A DNA stretch of 64,000 nucleotides from Actinomycetes bacterium. GTDB taxonomy: Bacteria > Actinomycetota > Thermoleophilia > RBG-16-64-13. The stretch lies in NCBI GenBank assembly GCA_024637035.1, contig JAGXFW010000033.1, forward strand, positions 18,791 through 82,790, given 5' to 3'. The notes beneath the pieces are model-generated. The model was not told the DNA's origin. It saw only the letters and a list, made by a program, of their open reading frames with translations, and searched no databases. A program made the translations under genes and the position numbers. Positions 3,565-40,431 of the stretch are shown in pieces; position 1 is the first letter of the stretch; each line of letters opens with the position of its first letter.

Positions 3565-3655
3565 GGAGAGGTGTCCGAGCTGGCTGAAGGAGCACGACTG
3601 GAAATCGTGTAGGCGGGGGTAACCCGTCTCGAGGGTTCGAATCCCTCCCTCTCCG
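3565..3655 (+). tRNA. tRNA-Ser (anticodon GGA)
   Basis: Class II tRNA of 91 nt. The acceptor GGAGAGG pairs with CCTCTCC, and G73 is the discriminator base. The anticodon stem CACGA/TCGTG encloses the loop CTGGAAA with anticodon GGA. There is a long variable arm (GGCGGGGGTAACCCGTC) and a T-arm GAGGGTTCGAATCCCTC. CCA is not encoded. Decodes UCC/UCU. Confidence 0.97.
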
Positions 3656-3735: not shown

Positions 3736-4002
3736 GACTGTGCTAGGTGGGGAGGTAGCGGTGCCCTGTACCCGCAATCCGCTATAGCGGGGCTGAATTC
3801 CCACCCGAGGAGCGGACCTGTAAGGTCATGCCGCCGTCAAGTGGTGTTGAGGATCAGGTCCCACGCAATGGGAATCCGTGAACCGGGTCAGGACCGGGAG
3901 GTAGCAGCCCTAAGCGGACCCTTCCATGTGCCGTGGGGCAACTTGATCTGAGCCGGCTGACGGAGGGCGCTTGGAGGCTTGTCTTCGACGGTGGGTGCAC
4001 GG
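3736..4002 (+). ncRNA. ffs: Signal recognition particle RNA, large bacterial (Alu-containing) type
   Basis: About 267 nt. The 5' end GTGCTAGGTGGGGAGGTAGC and the block CCCGCAATCCGCTATAGCGG are typical of the Alu domain of Gram-positive-type SRP RNA. The universally conserved S-domain tip is present as GTCAGGACCGGGAGGTAGCA, where Ffh binds (GGTAGCA in place of the commoner GGAAGCA). The 3' end GGTGCACGG pairs back with the 5' end. It acts with Ffh in co-translational membrane targeting. Placement before dnaX-ybaB-recR is a common arrangement. Confidence 0.93.
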
Positions 4003-14210: not shown

Positions 14211-14999
14211 CTAGTGGTGCGCGCAGCCGCCTTCCCCGTGAGCGTGACCCGTGTGACTCTCGCCCTCGGCGCCCGGGTGATCGTGATGGTGACCACAGGT
14301 GCTCTCCGACTTCGCGATCCCTCCGCTCAGGAACGCCTCCACTGCATTCGTCGCCGACCCGGACACACCGCAATAGAGGTCGAAACCCGCCCTGACGAGC
14401 GCCTGCTGCATCGGCGGGCCCATCCCACCAGCAAGGATCACATCCACGCCGCGGGAAGTGAGGAACCCGGCGAGCCCGCTGTGATCATGTTCGAGACCGG
14501 CGACTTCGTATACGGTGCTCTCCGTCACGGAACCATCTTCCGCTTCGGCGACGAGAAAGGCCTGGGTCCGGCCGAAATGGGCGTTCACCTGACCGTCGAG
14601 ATAGGGGACTGCGATGACCATCTTCTCTCCTTCTTTCCTTGTGATGTGGGTCGACTCATAGAGCGGTGCGCGCGTTGCTTCTTCCGTTGTCATGTCCGAG
14701 AGGCGCCGCCCAACCGCTACCGGGCCGCCCTCGATAACCAGCGCCTTGCCACCCACCAGGGCGTCGGCGACTGTGCGATGCGCCTCGGCGGCCAAACGGC
14801 TGACCGTCGACCGAGACACTCCGAGGTGCTGAGCCGCCTCATCCTGCGTCCGGCCTTCCAGATCGAGGAGCCGCAACACCTCGAGCCCGTCCAAGGTCAA
14901 CACGACCTGCTCCAGCCCGCGCGCCGGCACACCGGCGAGCTTGAACACACGCGGGTGAACGGGACCCTCCACGCACCTCCACTTACGGGGCCGAGCCAC
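14211..14999 (-). CDS. DUF134 DNA-binding domain fused to NifX/NifB-like (Fe-Mo cofactor) domain
   Basis: 262 residues from a GTG. Residues 1-95 are a DUF134 domain (MARPRKWRCVEG, then a sigma-like helix-turn-helix TQDEAAQHLGVSRSTVSRL). Residues about 125-235 are a dinitrogenase iron-molybdenum cofactor domain (VIAVPYLDGQVNAHFGRTQAFLV, VDVILAGGMGPPMQQAL). The tail is His/Cys-rich (CGHHHDHPG, GHAHGEGGCAHH), a probable metal-binding segment. No nitrogenase genes are near, so a metal- or Fe-S-responsive regulator is more likely than cofactor assembly. It probably represses itself through the palindrome at 15063-15076. Confidence 0.87.
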   Translation of the reverse strand: MARPRKWRCVEGPVHPRVFKLAGVPARGLEQVVLTLDGLEVLRLLDLEGRTQDEAAQHLGVSRSTVSRLAAEAHRTVADALVGGKALVIEGGPVAVGRRLSDMTTEEATRAPLYESTHITRKEGEKMVIAVPYLDGQVNAHFGRTQAFLVAEAEDGSVTESTVYEVAGLEHDHSGLAGFLTSRGVDVILAGGMGPPMQQALVRAGFDLYCGVSGSATNAVEAFLSGGIAKSESTCGHHHDHPGAEGESHTGHAHGEGGCAHH

Positions 15000-15062
15000 G
15001 ACGAACGTCCTTCGGCACGGTGGGTGATACGTAGGATCTGAGGTCGAACATCAGGGTCATTC

Positions 15063-15104
15063 TGCACATATGTGCATTATAGCCACTCGAAGAACGGCGC
15101 ACAA
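15063..15104 (-). promoter_or_regulatory. Promoter with overlapping perfect palindrome operator
   Basis: On the minus strand: -35 TTGTGC (15099-15104), 17-bp spacer, consensus -10 TATAAT (15076-15081), then the 14-bp perfect palindrome TGCACATATGTGCA (15063-15076) at the start site. This is classic repressor geometry; the DUF134 domain of the downstream gene is the obvious candidate to bind it. Confidence 0.75.
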
Positions 15105-15261
15105 CCGGGCATCACCGAGTGTAGGGCCCTGTCTTCTCCACAACCCCGTAGCCTGATCCTGTGACCCAACCCAGTTGACATTCGGAGCCGCAAGCGCTTA
15201 CCTGACCGGAGCGATTCGATGAAACCACCCATCGCCACTGGCCGGCGAGCCGAGGAGGATC

Positions 15262-23414: not shown

Positions 23415-24440
23415 TCAGTGGGGCAGAACCCGTGCGATCTCGGCAATGTGCTCCGGGTGGGAGATGAACACGAGGCGATCGACAACCTCTTCCCGCGGAG
23501 AAGGCCCCGTGTAGGGCTCGATAGTCCATTTCCCATTAACCAGGCTGAACAACCATGGCTCACCCGCGAACTTCACGATTCCCTTGCCGCGCACCACACG
23601 CTCGGGGAGTTCGCCGAGCCAGGCGCGCAGATGGTCCTGTGACTCCCAGGATCCTTCGACGACCCACGAGAGGAGGCGGTCGGGTGGTGTGACCTGGGCG
23701 GTCTCGTCGGTGAGGAGGTCGTCGATGTAGGACTCGAGCTCCCGCTCGCTCATCGCGGCCGGCGGCACCTTGTCCGCCTCCTCGCCTTCCTCAGAGTCTG
23801 CGTCGAGGCCGGACGAGCCGTCGCTTTCGGCCAATTCCCGCAGCCCGCCCTCACGGAAGAGCCCTTCGAAGGACACGTCCGCGTACACAGCCTCGTAGAA
23901 GCGAGGCTCGGGGTTCAACTCGCGCACGATCTCCTTGATGCGCTCGACCGTCTCCGGCTCAACCAGATCGACCTTGTTGATGATGAACACGTCTGAGGCA
24001 GCCAGCTGCTTCTCGATCGCGAGGAACGATTCGTACGTGTCGAGGAAGTTGGCGGCATCGACCAGGCAGAACTTGTCGCGCAGTCGGAAGGCGTCGCCGA
24101 AGATGGGAAGCTTGAGGTCGCGGCCGAGGTCGCTGGGATTGGCCACCCCCGTGGTCTCGATCAGCATGATGTCGGGACGCACGGTATGAGCGATCTCGTG
24201 AAGCGCTTTGATGAAGTCGGTCTTCACGCAGGCGCAGAAGATGGAGCCCTTGCTGATCTCGATCATGTCGAGATCCTCGCCCTCGACGAGCGTGCCGTCG
24301 AGCCCCATCTCGCCGAACTCGTTCATGAGTATCAGGAATCGAAGGTCCTCCGGTACCACCTTCACCAGGCGGTTGAGGAACGTGGTCTTGCCCGAACCGA
24401 GGAACCCCGAGATCAGGTAGACATCGACCTCATGCGCCAT
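23415..24440 (-). CDS. G3E-family (CobW/HypB/UreG-like) GTPase metallochaperone
   Basis: 341 residues from ATG 24440 (GAGGAG 10 nt upstream; a GTG nine bases earlier is too close to that SD). Walker A SGFLGSGKTTFLNRL (about 9-20), FGEMGLDG switch, IFCACVKTDF in place of the metal-binding CxCC, Walker B IETTGVANP, and INKVDLVEP. An acidic insertion (DADSEEGEEADKV) splits the C-terminal half. Members deliver Zn, Co or Ni, or serve corrinoid proteins. It is translationally coupled to the small CxxC peptide immediately upstream. Confidence 0.88.
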   Translation of the reverse strand: MAHEVDVYLISGFLGSGKTTFLNRLVKVVPEDLRFLILMNEFGEMGLDGTLVEGEDLDMIEISKGSIFCACVKTDFIKALHEIAHTVRPDIMLIETTGVANPSDLGRDLKLPIFGDAFRLRDKFCLVDAANFLDTYESFLAIEKQLAASDVFIINKVDLVEPETVERIKEIVRELNPEPRFYEAVYADVSFEGLFREGGLRELAESDGSSGLDADSEEGEEADKVPPAAMSERELESYIDDLLTDETAQVTPPDRLLSWVVEGSWESQDHLRAWLGELPERVVRGKGIVKFAGEPWLFSLVNGKWTIEPYTGPSPREEVVDRLVFISHPEHIAEIARVLPH

Positions 24441-24543
24441 CGCCGTCACACTCCTCGGCGCGCCCTGACCCGCTCATCGCCCGAACATCGGCGATGAGGT
24501 CGATGCACGTCTTGCACGCTGAGCCCGGAACCAGTGCCAACAT
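24430..24543 (-). CDS. 37-residue CxxC peptide coupled to the G3E GTPase
   Basis: Small gene found by reading the leader of the GTPase: ATG 24543 with GGAGG seven bases upstream, 37 codons, then TGA overlapping the GTPase start region (11-bp overlap). The product begins MLALVPGSACKTCIDLI and ends AEECDGDGA; C-K-T-C looks like a metal or redox site. A -10 box TATGAT lies just upstream (minus strand, about 24575). The SD and tight coupling support translation; function is unknown. It may be a metal-binding partner or a leader peptide. Confidence 0.5.
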   Translation of the reverse strand: MLALVPGSACKTCIDLIADVRAMSGSGRAEECDGDGA

Positions 24544-25153: not shown

Positions 25154-25594
25154 GTGGGGGAACTGTGCTGGGAGATCGTAGGAGACGGCGGTCATGGTGA
25201 CCGTGGTTGCCGGTCGTGCCCCGCATACCTGACCGGCTCCGACTGTTGGGAAGTGAAAGGCACCCCCTGCTCGTGCAATCCGGCCATCTGCATCCTCATC
25301 GAATGCCCCGTCTACCTCGTGCATAAGGCTGAGATCGAGAGTCGCCTTGCCCACGAAGACCTCGAGACCATGCTGCGCGCAGTCGAGCGCGTCGCCTCGG
25401 GTCAGTGCTGGGAGATCGAGGAGTGCACCGAAGCGGTGAGGGGCACCTGCCCGGCTCACGCAGAAGGCGCCCATTGTTGGGAACTCTCCTCACCCTGCCC
25501 CTGCAGCGGCGAAGACGGGTTCAGCCGTTGTCTCGTCTGCCCTATCAGGGTCTTCCACCAGCGCAACGCTTCTTCGCCGATCCGCAGCAGCTGA
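25154..25594 (+). CDS. Cys-rich two-CW-domain-like protein
   Basis: 146 residues from GTG 25154 with AAGGGAG seven bases upstream. Two similar halves contain CWE motifs: CWEIV...CRSCPAYL...CWEVKGTPCSCNP...CILIECPVY, then CWEIEECT...CPAHAEGAHCWELSSPCPCSG...CLVCPIRVFHQ. In all 19 Cys, with the spacing seen in two-CW proteins of anaerobes, which likely bind Fe-S clusters or other metal. It directly precedes the candidate selenoprotein operon on the same strand but ends before that operon's own promoter. Confidence 0.75.
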   Translation: MGELCWEIVGDGGHGDRGCRSCPAYLTGSDCWEVKGTPCSCNPAICILIECPVYLVHKAEIESRLAHEDLETMLRAVERVASGQCWEIEECTEAVRGTCPAHAEGAHCWELSSPCPCSGEDGFSRCLVCPIRVFHQRNASSPIRSS

Positions 25595-25612
25595 ACCACG
25601 ATCGCCCGGGGT

Positions 25613-25670
25613 TGCGCACGCGGTATTCCTCGCGCATAATATATTCATGTATGTCGATACTTCCATACAT
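25613..25670 (+). promoter_or_regulatory. Promoter and operator of the ArsR operon
   Basis: -35 TTGCGC (25613-25618), 16-bp spacer, -10 CATAAT (25635-25640); predicted start falls at or next to the ATG at 25647, i.e. a leaderless mRNA. An inverted repeat ATGTATG (25647-25653) / CATACAT (25664-25670), 10-bp spacer, covers the start site, as expected for ArsR autorepression. Confidence 0.65.
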
Positions 25671-25985
25671 AGCACCCGGACCGACGACCCGTCGGAGGCA
25701 ATACACCTCGCGCGCCTCGGCCGGTTCTTCAAGGCTCTCAGCGAACCGACTCGGCTTCGGATAGCACTGGCACTCACCGAGGAATGTCGCCCCGTGAGTG
25801 ACGTGGTGGCGGCCACCGGTCTTCCTCAGCCCCTCGTCTCTCACCATCTTCGCATCCTGCACGAGGCGGGCATCGCCAAGCCCGATCGACAGGGCAACCA
25901 GGTGTACTACTGACTGCAACGCGCCGTGGTCCGGGAGGCCATCCGCGTAGCCGAGAAGGCCATCGAGTCGGGGACGGCGTCGTGA
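25647..25985 (+). CDS. ArsR-family repressor with in-frame TGA (candidate selenocysteine or nonsense)
   Basis: Read through the TGA at 25911-25913, the product is 112 residues; stopping there leaves 88. The winged helix is complete: RFFKALSEPTRLRIALALT, VSDVVAATGLPQPLVSHHLRIL, GNQVYY. The TGA is codon 89, immediately after VYY, and the frame continues LQRAVVREAIRVAEKAIESGTAS, a normal ArsR C-terminal dimerisation helix, ending at a TGA that overlaps the next GTG start. A hairpin with apical loop 19 nt past the TGA fits a bacterial SECIS. A CGA-to-TGA mutation is the alternative. No classical CVC metal site; a single Cys lies in EECRPV. Confidence 0.75.
25920..25947 (+). promoter_or_regulatory. 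Candidate SECIS element 1
   Basis: Hairpin: outer CGCG/CGCG, internal loop, inner TGGTC/GGCCA (T-A, G-C, G-C, T-G, C-G), apical loop CGGGA starting 19 nt after the TGA. Fits the bacterial SECIS distance window and has G in the first two loop positions. Confidence 0.4.
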
Positions 25986-27235
25986 GCGACGCACCGACGT
26001 CCGACGCGCCACTCCACGAAGACGCCTCGGGAGGGCCGGCGCAGGGGGGCGCGGAGCCCGCAAACACACAGTCCTGCATCATCTGCGACAGCACGCTCGA
26101 CTACCTGGATTCGGCGGCCGCGCTCACCTGCACCGTCTGCGGGAGTGAGGGTCGGGGGCACGTCGTCTGCCCGCGGGGACACTACGTGTGCGAAGGCTGT
26201 CACGGAGCGAGCTTCATGGAGCGTCTCCCTGGTCTGCTCGACGCGGCCACCTCGTCCTCCCCGTTCGCGATCGCGGAGGACCTCATCGCCGAGACCGACC
26301 TCCCCATGCTCGGGTGCGAACACGCGCACGTGGCGGCGGGTGCCTTGATGCGGGCCCTGGAGAACGCCGGTGTGGCAGGAGTCACCGCCGCCCACAGGGC
26401 TGAAGTGCTGGAGAGGACGGCCCGCCAGGCGGTGAGCGCGTACTGCGGATTGAGTGGCGTGTGCGGGGTCGTGCCTGCCCTGGGAGCCTGCTACAGCGTG
26501 CTCGTGGGCGGTCAGTGCGGCAAAGGCCCGCAGACCAAGGCGGCCATGACCCTTGTCTCCCGCCTCGCGGCGGCCACGGCCGCCGAGGCACACCCGGGCT
26601 GCTGCAAAGCCTATGTGCGAGTCGGCCTCCGCGAAGCCACAGCCTTCCTGCAAGAGGAGTTGGACATCACCTTCGACGCGGCCGCGCCCGTGATCTGCGC
26701 CGACACGGAACGCCACCCCCACGGGTGCCGAGGCGCGGAGTGCGCCTGGCACCCCGACCACGAGGAGACGCACATGAACGAACCCGATACGGCCGTGCCC
26801 ACGGCCGGCGCGGCGTCGACTCTCGGCGGGACGGGCGGCACCGGACCCGCCGCAAAGGCGCGCTACGACGAGTTCTTCGAGCTCGCCTACGCCGACGGCG
26901 TCCTCGATCGCAAGACGAAGATCCTGGTGGCATTGGGGGCTTCACTGGCATCCGGCTGTGCTCCCTGAACTCAGTATTGCCTCTCGGTCGGGAGGCGACT
27001 CGGGGTGACGGACGAGGAGGTCGACGAGGTGCTCCACGCCGCGATGACCGTTGGAGCCACGCGCATGCAGGTGATGCTCTCGCAGGAGGTCGCGCAGCTC
27101 GCTCCGGCGGAGGGAACACCTTCCACGCCTTCTCCCGCCGCGACGGAAGACCCGCGCCCGAGCGTCGCGGCCGACCGAGCAGGGTCGCCCGGGTTCGCCG
27201 CCGCCGAGGTGGTCGAACAGGCGGGTGGTGGCTGA
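25982..27235 (+). CDS. DUF5714 - carboxymuconolactone decarboxylase (AhpD-like) fusion, candidate selenoprotein (CxxU)
   Basis: 417 residues read through TGA 26966-26968 (residue 329). GTG start overlaps the arsR stop (GTGA). Residues about 30-235 form a DUF5714 domain with many Cys (CIICDS, CTVCGS, CPRGHYVCEGCHG, HPGCCKAYV). The C-terminal CMD/AhpD-like domain reads AKARYDEFFELAYADGVLDRKTKILVALGASLASGCAP-U-TQYC, then VTDEEVDEVLHAAMTVGATRMQVMLSQEV. The TGA lies where AhpD-like proteins have the second Cys of CxxC, and a perfect SECIS-like hairpin follows. Conventional termination would delete half of the catalytic domain. Likely a thiol/selenol peroxidase-type redox protein. Confidence 0.82.
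26979..26996 (+). promoter_or_regulatory. Candidate SECIS element 2
   Basis: GCCTCTC-GGTC-GGGAGGC: 7-bp stem (one G-U pair) with GGUC loop. It starts 10 nt after the TGA and the loop 18 nt after. The loop matches the GGUCU apex recognised by SelB in E. coli fdhF mRNA. Confidence 0.75.
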
Positions 27236-27252
27236 ACAGGTTGAGAACCCGA

Positions 27253-27271
27253 CGACGCCGGTTCGGCGTCG
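27253..27271 (+). other. Perfect 8-bp hairpin in intergenic gap
   Basis: CGACGCCG-GTT-CGGCGTCG between the DUF5714-CMD gene and the thioredoxin-like gene. No T-tract. Could stabilise or partially terminate the mRNA. Confidence 0.5.
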
Positions 27272-27387
27272 CAGACGGTCTCGGATACCACGGCTACCAC
27301 GGATCGCCCGCCGCAGCCGGCATCTGGTTCCACGTGAAAGTAGAAGAGCGGCCCGTGGCGGCCGCCGCACAAGAGGAAAGGGGATCC

Positions 27388-27696
27388 ATGGACCAAGCAG
27401 ACCAAGAAAGCCCGCACATCGACCTGATCTCCAAGGGTCCCTCGTGAGTGCTCTGCAATCTCGCCGTGAGCGCGATGGAAGACATACAGGAGGAGAGCCC
27501 AGGCCTGTTCACGTTCTCGGTGGTTGATGCGTCCACCCGAGAGGGCGTGAAGTGCCTGCAAGAACTGCGACCGGAGGCCGGGCGTCAGATTCCCGTGCCC
27601 GGCGTGATGATGAACGGAGCGATCATTTTCGACCGAATCCCCGACATGGAAGAGTTCGGGGAATGGCTCGAAGGGCAGACGACGCCCGGGGCCTGA
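27388..27696 (+). CDS. Thioredoxin-like protein, candidate selenoprotein (UxxC)
   Basis: 102 residues read through TGA 27445-27447 (residue 20). ATG 27388 follows GGAAAGGGG. The sequence is IDLISKGPS-U-VLCNLAVSAMEDI, placing the TGA at the first Cys of a thioredoxin CxxC, then FTFSVVDASTREGVKCLQEL, the cis-Pro loop IPVPGVMMNG, and IIFDRIPDMEEFGEWLEG. This is a full single-domain thioredoxin/glutaredoxin fold. Conventional termination would leave only 19 residues. A hairpin with loop 18 nt after the TGA is present. Likely electron donor to, or partner of, the upstream CxxU protein. Confidence 0.82.
27458..27476 (+). promoter_or_regulatory. Candidate SECIS element 3
   Basis: ATCTCGC-CGTGA-GCGCGAT: six pairs with one mismatch; loop CGUGA starts 18 nt after the TGA, the same distance as element 2. 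Confidence 0.55.
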
Positions 27697-27707: not shown

Positions 27708-27867
27708 AGGCTGTTGAAGAATGGACGCTTCGCCGCCAGGGCGCGATGGGCGCGTGCGAGACAAGGAGGCAGGAAGCGCTCGTAGCAGCGCTACGTGCGC
27801 GACCGAGGACGCCGCATCGCGCCGTCCAGTGCATTCTGGCGGCCAAGGCTTCGATCTTCAACAGCCT
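27708..27867. repeat. 160-bp imperfect palindromic element (MITE/REP-like)
   Basis: Terminal inverted repeats AGGCTGTTGAAGA (27708-27720) and TCTTCAACAGCCT (27855-27867), with internal arms that also pair (GCGCTCGTAG / CTACGTGCGC around the centre at about 27787). The GGCTGTTGAA terminus resembles dispersed intergenic repeats of other anaerobes. It may act as terminator for the operon before it. No gene is seen in 27697-28011. Confidence 0.75.
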
Positions 27868-40127: not shown

Positions 40128-40179
40128 AGACTTTGCCATCATCTCCAGGCAGGGCTCCCTCTACTCGGGGAGCCTACCA

Positions 40180-40400
40180 GCTGCTCAGGCAGGTCTTCTG
40201 ACTCTCGGATCGTCGCTCCCCCGCGCCTTCCCATCCTCCTTGCCTCCACTCCCCCCAACTCGGGGAGCGGCGGTGGAAGGACAGTGGCACCTGCGGGCTC
40301 ACTCCCCGATCACAGCGGCGGGACCGTCCGGGTATCGCACCCGGTTCCCTCTTAGCCGCACCCGGTCGCTCCGACTTCGGAGCCACCTCGCGCGGGACCT
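40180..40400 (-). promoter_or_regulatory. Cobalamin riboswitch
   Basis: On the minus strand the conserved blocks appear in order: GGGAACCGGGTGCGATACCC, GGTCCCGCCGCTGTGAT, the B12-box core TGCCACTG, and the closing GAGTCAGAAGACCTGCCTG. Boundaries are approximate. It controls the bza-cobT-transporter operon through the downstream terminator, so high B12 should switch the operon off. Confidence 0.95.
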
Positions 40401-40431
40401 GGCAACCATGCTACGAATGCTACGGTCGCTA

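Follow-up and report, generated by a model that had tools for sequence, protein, structure and literature searches.

A candidate selenoprotein operon with an in-frame UGA in its ArsR-type repressor gene in a Thermoleophilia genome

Background

Could a repressor of transcription use selenocysteine (Sec) as one of the residues with which it senses its signal? The question is raised by three adjacent genes in a 64,000-nucleotide stretch of DNA (the window) from an Actinomycetes bacterium of the class Thermoleophilia (assembly GCA_024637035.1, contig JAGXFW010000033.1, positions 18,791 to 82,790), which is part of contig C18 in a genome of 3.57 Mb in 34 contigs. They encode an ArsR-family protein (arsR), a DUF5714-AhpD/CMD protein (gene 2) and a thioredoxin-like protein (trx), and TGA codons stand in frame in all three. 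An initial annotation took them for a selenoprotein operon under its own ArsR repressor, and this is still the best reading, the repression of the operon being suggested by the position and family of ArsR. We put at roughly 0.8 the probability that the three genes form an operon whose in-frame UGAs are read as Sec, and that the ArsR repressor likely senses through Cys47 and Sec89. Selenocysteine insertion is well supported by the sequence comparisons, and we infer the ArsR signal, the operator and the enzyme activity of the gene 2 product.

Results

Three genes with in-frame UGA codons

The main features are given below, where W is the window's own locus, G000 its own genome and the other G numbers are relative genomes. 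Hairpins resembling the bacterial selenocysteine insertion sequence are called bSECIS-like.

25612..25642, plus strand: promoter-like TTGCGC (25612-25617) and TAATAT (25637-25642), seen by eye, 4 nt upstream of the arsR ATG
25647..25985, plus strand: arsR, ArsR/SmtB winged-helix protein of 112 aa with predicted Sec89 and a conserved Cys47
25911..25913, plus strand: UGA, predicted Sec89 of ArsR; TGA in 8 loci, Cys in proteins P0164-P0171
25926..25942, plus strand: bSECIS-like hairpin of arsR, loop CGGGA (25932-25936), with pairing and covariation
25982..25985, plus strand: GTGA in which the arsR stop and the gene 2 start overlap; RTGA also in G001, G012, G010 and G014
25982..27343, plus strand: gene 2, DUF5714-AhpD/CMD, 453 aa from the GTG at 25982, with predicted Sec at 329, 418, 421 and 452
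26966..26968, plus strand: UGA, predicted Sec329; CAPU is the CxxU of the AhpD domain; TGA in W, G001, G012, G010, G014 and G524
26977..26998, plus strand: bSECIS-like hairpin of Sec329, loop GGTC (26986-26989); weak in G524
27388..27696, plus strand: trx, thioredoxin-like, 102 aa with predicted Sec20 (UVLC); nearest NCBIfam model NF047660
27445..27447, plus strand: UGA, predicted Sec20 (UxxC); TGA in W and five other trx loci
27461..27475, plus strand: bSECIS-like hairpin of Sec20, loop CGTGAGC (27465-27471); best column of 98

Direct reading of the sequence confirmed the in-frame TGAs of arsR (25911), gene 2 (26966) and trx (27445) as first annotated, and likewise the GTGA overlap at 25982-25985, which arises only if 25911 is read through. 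The hairpin loops start at nucleotides 19, 18 and 18 after the three TGAs, and the TGAs of gene 2 and trx fall on redox positions (CxxU in GCAPU and UxxC in UVLC), again as claimed. The motif CxxC is general in AhpD and in thioredoxin. By eye, TTGC and an A+T-richer stretch recur ahead of the arsR ATG in the loci of the family, and the transcript of the operon may be leaderless.

The genome encodes the complete Sec machinery, the presence of which had been named as a check on the annotation. The tRNA-Sec lies on contig C26 (72.6 bits against a cut-off of 47; called tRNA-SeC with anticodon tca by ARAGORN), as do selA (549 bits) and selB (320 bits), and selD (402 bits) lies on contig C7 of G000 at 14250-15176. 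The selD gene has one in-frame TGA itself (GSGUACK), with a strong 7-bp hairpin after it at offset 20, and SelD of this genome is thus a predicted selenoprotein. Since selenophosphate synthetase is an experimentally verified selenoprotein family according to a table in PMC13188914, the genome very likely uses UGA for Sec, and selD serves as an internal positive control.

A sequencing error, a nonsense mutation or a change of the genetic code would also fit the TGAs if nothing but these codons were considered. We rejected a pseudogene or an error since the same codons are TGA in separate genomes of several genera, and a code change since the Sec machinery is present and TGA is the usual stop here, ending 17 of the 28 long open reading frames (ORFs) of the window that are rich in G+C at the third codon position. 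The chance that any of them explains the locus is vanishingly small.

Conservation in related genomes

Gene 2 was searched for in 61 genomes (its own and relatives), with matches in 15, and class-wide in 399 genomes, nine of them matching at E 1e-20; a phylum search with an ArsR alignment covered 396 genomes, and the 209 matching had mostly ordinary ArsRs. In the 61-genome search, gene 2 has one internal TGA in G000, G001, G012, G010 and G014 and none in G005 and G004. Distant DUF5714 genes with a TGA are encoded in G044 and G002, and the rest of the matches, at E 6.7e-8 or weaker, are confined to the CMD part. In G001, G012, G010 and G014 the three genes stand in succession with all three TGAs at the same codons; G005 keeps the TGAs of arsR and trx next to a gene 2 without the CMD domain. 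The trx orthologues are 66-89% identical in five loci.

These loci with a predicted Sec-containing ArsR (W, G001, G012, G010, G014 and G005) were reached through gene 2. The phylum search has at least two more TGA-bearing ArsRs of this kind among the matches listed, in G042, which belongs to a different family of the class, and in G524, which shares the phylum, both of them chosen on account of their listed TGA. Three further TGA-bearing ArsR rows (G551, G541 and G668) were left out of the count, and no Sec was found at the arsR codon among the domains read from G685 and G613. Downstream of arsR in G042 come first a small ORF and then genes for a methyltransferase like MduS (245 bits) and for a DUF2284 protein; in G524 the genes downstream encode a URO-D protein (223.5 bits) and a DUF5714-CMD protein with the same TGA as gene 2, to which it is 38.5% identical. 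The flanking genes were considered as a clue to function and set aside, the ten flanking ORFs of G012, G010 and G005 differing in kind (ABC transporters, a dynamin-like protein, a methyltransferase and dehydrogenases).

Hairpins downstream of the UGA codons

All hairpins were scored by one rule, i.e. a G at loop position 1 or 2 and an offset of 15-19. By mean shared-hairpin score the arsR Sec column ranks first of 104 columns with six loci and first of 97 with eight, tied with column 90, which sees the same hairpin. The trx Sec column ranks first of 98 (six loci) and the gene 2 Sec column second of 371 (five loci), the first-ranked column there being in the tail hairpin. The Sec89, Sec329 and Sec20 TGAs are more than chance because they are conserved at orthologous codons and because of these ranks.

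The arsR hairpin pairs in 95.8% of the 48 cells over eight loci, with double changes in two of the six pairs. Covariation was assessed over the same loci by five measures with 500 shuffles, and three of the measures were reached by 3/500 shuffles. The loops are alike (CGGGA, CGTGA, GGTC, CGTGAGC and similar). bSECIS-like hairpins follow the UGAs, the exceptions being the UK-stop site of G012 (offset 15) and the CMD site of G524 (weak stem).

Sec89 and Cys47 in the ArsR protein

The ArsR protein scores 47.4 bits with Pfam HTH_5, where the cut-off is 22, and 77.2 bits with the NCBIfam model HTH_metalloreg, where it is 55. Its AlphaFold2 (AF2) model has a pLDDT (predicted local distance difference test) of 87.6 and fold matches led by CzrA and CadC, with SmtB also among them; the winged helix of the ArsR/SmtB family is present by all these matches.

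Is the TGA at 25911 a Sec codon, or is it a true stop, so that an 88-aa ArsR without alpha5 does the work and selenoproteins come from gene 2 and trx alone? The nucleotide differences after the codon have no third-position bias and 59 of the 72 database relatives of ArsR end exactly before it, both of which a true stop would explain; the 59 are protein records, the codon having been seen only for those from the loci compared. Of the others, eight have Cys (YYCL) and five neither. How homologues read at these codons had been proposed as a check, and the answer is TGA at the same codons in relatives and, for arsR, Cys in 8 of the 13 non-truncated database relatives. The full-length relatives with Cys in place of Sec support Sec at codon 89, and the hairpin is found in eight loci with covariation. 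In addition, the reading frame stays conserved after the TGA and leads to the RTGA overlap in five of the six family loci having arsR (W, G001, G012, G010 and G014), for which translation has to go on for 72-120 nt after the UGA; G005 has no such overlap, its gene 2 starting shortly after arsR. Without Sec the protein would end at residue 88 and lose its last helix (93-110 of the model), which we take to be the dimer helix in this family, and the dimer interface would presumably go with it. A true stop at this codon is highly improbable in our view.

Cys47 appears to be the partner of Sec89. The Cys of the motif ECRPV is present in all 59 records that end at the codon and in all eight Cys relatives. 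It is 42 residues from Sec in 8/8 Sec loci, and the same spacing separates the two cysteines in eight of the nine Cys-type proteins, P0171 being different and the ninth being P0225 of Ideonella. As a control we took the 30 best loci of the phylum search, with 33 ArsR domains: Cys47 is present in each of the five that have Sec, and both residues are missing from the remaining 28, one of them with a gap at the Cys position. Sec89 falls in strand 85-90 (S3, at the base of the wing) in the AF2 model and Cys47 directly before the bridge at 48-49 (S1), which in a winged helix would lie next to that strand; from this secondary structure we infer that the two residues are close together. The protein has no Cys other than Cys47, and no His, Cys or Asp follows Sec89 (LQRAVVREAIRVAEKAIESGTAS).

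Known metal sites of ArsR proteins include a CxC motif in alpha3 and an Asp/His site in alpha5; the alpha-site metal sensors were rejected as a model, their ligands being missing here. BigR and SqrR are thiol-redox repressors with the ArsR fold and two redox thiols, whose cysteines lie in helices alpha2 and alpha5. Both are among the fold neighbours of our ArsR, which scores 40.2 bits with the BigR model (cut-off 155), whereas its own predicted pair lies before S1 and in S3 and has Sec as one partner.

A Cys-type relative of this ArsR (ECRPV...YYCL, 42 apart) is encoded on the Ideonella dechloratans plasmid NZ_CP088082.1 (L080:6971-7357) beside chlorate reductase genes. Three of the 380 matched plasmid records were compared, of which one has the Cys pair and two lack both cysteines. 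In the parts of PMC7349173 considered here, an ArsR-family gene, apparently this one, is described as the sole regulator on the transposon and, since the family mostly senses metals, as a less likely agent of oxygen-dependent regulation. The Ideonella ArsR with its Cys pair may sense redox state.

The Cys47-Sec89 pair might sense oxidants such as peroxide or reactive chlorine, with gene 2 and trx forming a selenol peroxidase rather than a metalloid system. The AhpD CxxU and the thioredoxin UxxC are redox motifs, and the Ideonella relative stands beside chlorate reductase genes; the same account in PMC7349173 names hypochlorite as a by-product of chlorite dismutase and counts the arsR, apparently this one, among three further transposon genes that may be relevant to chlorate respiration. 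However, the relatives of both gene 2 halves and the neighbours of the Sec-ArsR in G042 and G524 (methyltransferase, DUF2284, URO-D) suit metal or metalloid chemistry better. We regard oxidant sensing as a serious possibility, somewhat short of even odds.

Gene 2 and its Sec-rich tail

Gene 2 matches Pfam DUF5714 (117.4 bits) and CMD (50.7 bits). Its residues 20-264 score 282.6 bits with MbdU (cut-off 600), a match that does not extend over the whole protein, residues 293-367 score 101.9 bits with the ArsM-AhpD selenoprotein and residues 294-377 score 73.1 bits with MduS. In a search for a fold of DUF5714, no Foldseek match to the gene 2 model reached E 0.001, and the best rows among the best 50 of 132 were CMD/AhpD (best E 8.4e-3). 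The YD.FF motif of the CMD domain is present in 41 of 104 database relatives, and all 41 end at GC.P. For trx, the nearest NCBIfam model is NF047660 with 46.6 bits (cut-off 105), 39 of 48 database entries begin directly after the UGA and 9 at a later Met, and a sequence search of PDB gave one weak thioredoxin (E 0.36). No full-length relative with Cys at the UGA position was found among the matches for gene 2 or trx.

The initial annotation counted one TGA per gene and ended gene 2 at 27235. The count stands for arsR and trx; in gene 2 three more TGAs (27233, 27242 and 27335) stand in frame before a TAG at 27341-27343, and reading through them would give it up to three further Sec. The features of this tail are as follows.

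27233..27235, plus strand: UGA, predicted Sec418 (GGGU); TGA in 7/7 loci compared
27242..27244, plus strand: UGA, possible Sec421, UxxU with 27233; TGA in W, G001, G012 and G005
27253..27271, plus strand: hairpin CGACGCCG-GTT-CGGCGTCG; kept in W, G001, G012, G010, G014 and G005, imperfect in G004
27335..27343, plus strand: TGA AAG TAG, predicted Sec452-Lys-stop at the gene 2 end (stop TAG 27341-27343)
27348..27365, plus strand: hairpin GCGGCC-CGTGGC-GGCCGC after the gene 2 stop, predicted SECIS of Sec452

The tail frame reads GGG-TGA (27233), TG-TGA (27242) and ST-TGA-AAG-TAG (27335-27343), the codon at 27242 being other residues in G010, G014 and G004. If gene 2 instead stopped at 27233, with Sec329 alone and three Sec in the operon, the nucleotide differences between G010 and G014 downstream would be understandable, as they are not coding-like (7, 6 and 4 by codon position, without third-position bias), and so would the distance of the hairpin, which is unlike the others. 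The end of the tail is harder to explain in that way. After TGA AAG, W and G001 have TAG, G010 has TGA and G014 has TAA, three different stop codons in four genomes (G012 ends with TGA AGT AGC TGA), and a further hairpin past the stop, its loop at offset 15-16, is found in these five loci with differing stem sequences. W and G001 differ in tail length by 9 nt in frame, with differences of 6, 4 and 11 by codon position, the third being commonest, and the distant relative G524 has another tail, which ends DCU-TP-stop. In G005, where gene 2 is without the CMD domain, the tail reads GGG-TGA-ST-TGA and has no UK-stop end. A stop at 27233 is unlikely on balance, and the extra Sec residues of the tail are likely by these comparisons; the prediction is then four Sec in gene 2 and up to six in the operon. 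Only a small subset of selenoprotein families has two to three Sec according to PMC13188914, as far as its text was available.

A terminator at 27253 was considered and rejected, no T-run being seen by eye after the hairpin. In G004 the DUF5714 gene is located at L042:6939-7850 and ends with GHG-TGA-SC, which aligns with the GGG-TGA site and has an imperfect hairpin. The stretch fetched around this gene yielded neither an arsR nor a trx of this kind.

Points against the proposed reading

A number of results weigh against Sec insertion throughout the operon or against the proposed sensor. A tRNA-Sec over the cut-off is found in 23 of 28 chosen relatives, many of them without the trio, and none over the cut-off is found in G012, which has the trio and is 78% complete. 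Two of the five covariation measures for the arsR hairpin are not above the shuffles (300/500 and 482/500), the hairpin at the CMD site of G524 is weak (score 5.5), the TGA in the DUF2284 gene of G042 has no good hairpin, and the tail hairpin at 27253 lies outside the register of 15-19 nt (rank 257/371 there), its loop being about 24 nt on. The differences after U89 by codon position (6, 2 and 3 between W and G001; 9, 5 and 7 between G010 and G014) lack third-position bias, possibly owing to the constraint of the hairpin on the same stretch. As for the regulator, the known ArsR metal sites (CxC in alpha3, Asp/His in alpha5) are absent from its sequence, and a search near the start for an operator palindrome of at least 8 pairs with no more than one mismatch gave nothing clear in the trio loci, only G524 having one. 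The Cys-type ArsR on the chlorate-reduction transposon points to oxidants rather than metalloids.

Neighbourhood in the window

A 146-aa Cys-rich ORF with repeated CWE..CP motifs lies directly upstream of arsR (25154-25594, plus strand). It is 91% identical in G001 and 56% identical in G012, where it is some 3.6 kb away, and it has no Pfam or NCBIfam match. Between trx and an EamA gene, at 27708-27867, there is a 12-nt inverted repeat (AGGCTGTTGAAG at 27708 and CTTCAACAGCCT at 27856), similar to a small mobile repeat; the G001 stretches L019 and L037 contain neither arm. Near the operon, a CobW-type GTPase (23415-24449, minus strand, 135.6 bits) is open under the standard code; CobW-related selenoproteins exist, as PMC13188914 mentions in the portion consulted. 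Other features of the window are listed below.

3565-3655, plus strand: tRNA
3738-4002, plus strand: large signal recognition particle RNA
40171-40416, minus strand: cobalamin riboswitch

Discussion

Relation to known selenoproteins

No NCBIfam selenoprotein model reaches its own cut-off on the proteins of the window, and none reaches it for DUF5714-AhpD. The initial annotation knew of no description of the trio; parts of it do have described relatives, namely MbdU, the AhpD CxxU fusions and the HUIPC-type thioredoxin. MbdU (NF045648, metal-binding double selenoprotein) shares the DUF5714 half (residues 20-264) with gene 2 and then goes on into DUF2284, whereas gene 2 goes on into AhpD/CMD with CxxU and the Sec-rich tail. 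We take MbdU to be a DUF5714-DUF2284 fusion because P0100, with Pfam DUF5714 and DUF2284, matches it at 551.8 bits over 42-405 of 468 residues. Judged by its domain matches, gene 2 is DUF5714 fused to AhpD/CMD, a domain swap of MbdU. The ArsM-AhpD fusion (arsenite methyltransferase/AhpD, NF041537, cut-off 510) and MduS (NF045649, cut-off 380) share the AhpD CxxU, and both are by name methyltransferases in the N-terminal half, where gene 2 has DUF5714; it scores below both cut-offs. From these sequences, DUF5714 and methyltransferase heads appear to combine with DUF2284 or AhpD tails.

The HUIPC thioredoxin-like family (NF047660) is like trx in size and in having UxxC, the motif of trx being GPSUVLC and its score below the cut-off. 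The Tso operon, as far as its description was available, is also a run of selenoprotein genes with a model for an ArsR-type regulator, TsoR (NF045707); our ArsR is set apart from it by its score (56.4 bits, cut-off 115), and no TsoA, TsoB or TsoC was found among the matches of the operon proteins, the neighbouring genes having been scanned in part.

In the open literature searched, neither a Sec-containing ArsR nor a DUF5714-AhpD protein is described among the matches listed, exact phrases for Sec-containing regulators had no match, and the novelty is provisional. The words ArsR, regulator, DUF5714, transcription factor and Thermoleophil are all absent from the text of PMC12013277. PMC13188914, a review of 2026, counts 119 prokaryotic selenoprotein families and subfamilies and takes most uncharacterised ones as redox proteins; ArsR is absent from its text, and the only table entry named as regulatory is a putative FmdB-type protein. 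We provisionally regard an operon of metal- and AhpD-kind selenoproteins as the known part, and the Sec in ArsR and the DUF5714-AhpD protein with its multi-Sec tail as the new part.

Proposed mechanism

In the mechanism that we propose, the ArsR dimer, when reduced and free of ligand, would occupy DNA close to the arsR start codon and keep the operon repressed. A selenylsulfide, or a thiol-seeking metalloid or electrophile bound between Cys47 and Sec89, would distort the wing and release the DNA. The gene 2 product might then handle metals or metalloids and would also have a CxxU centre of peroxidase-like or reductase type and a C-terminal arm rich in selenols; the thioredoxin-like partner with UxxC would maintain it in the reduced state. 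The start of gene 2 lies within the end of arsR and would be reached only by ribosomes that have inserted Sec89; the selenium supply therefore likely also gates the operon. We tentatively suggest, as a proposal that may well not hold in full, a family of Sec-ArsR repressors that join a chemical sensor to a selenium gate over Sec-rich metal or metalloid enzymes, here a 453-residue DUF5714-AhpD protein with four Sec, making six Sec per operon.

Such a family would be easily overlooked, because the 59 records end at the UGA codon and most of these ArsR fragments are about 70-90 aa long. The Cys and Sec forms of the sensor can be compared, because natural Cys versions exist. If our reading is true, a Sec-sensing repressor would extend selenocysteine chemistry to the control of genes, and the conserved gene overlap would tie their expression to the supply of selenium.

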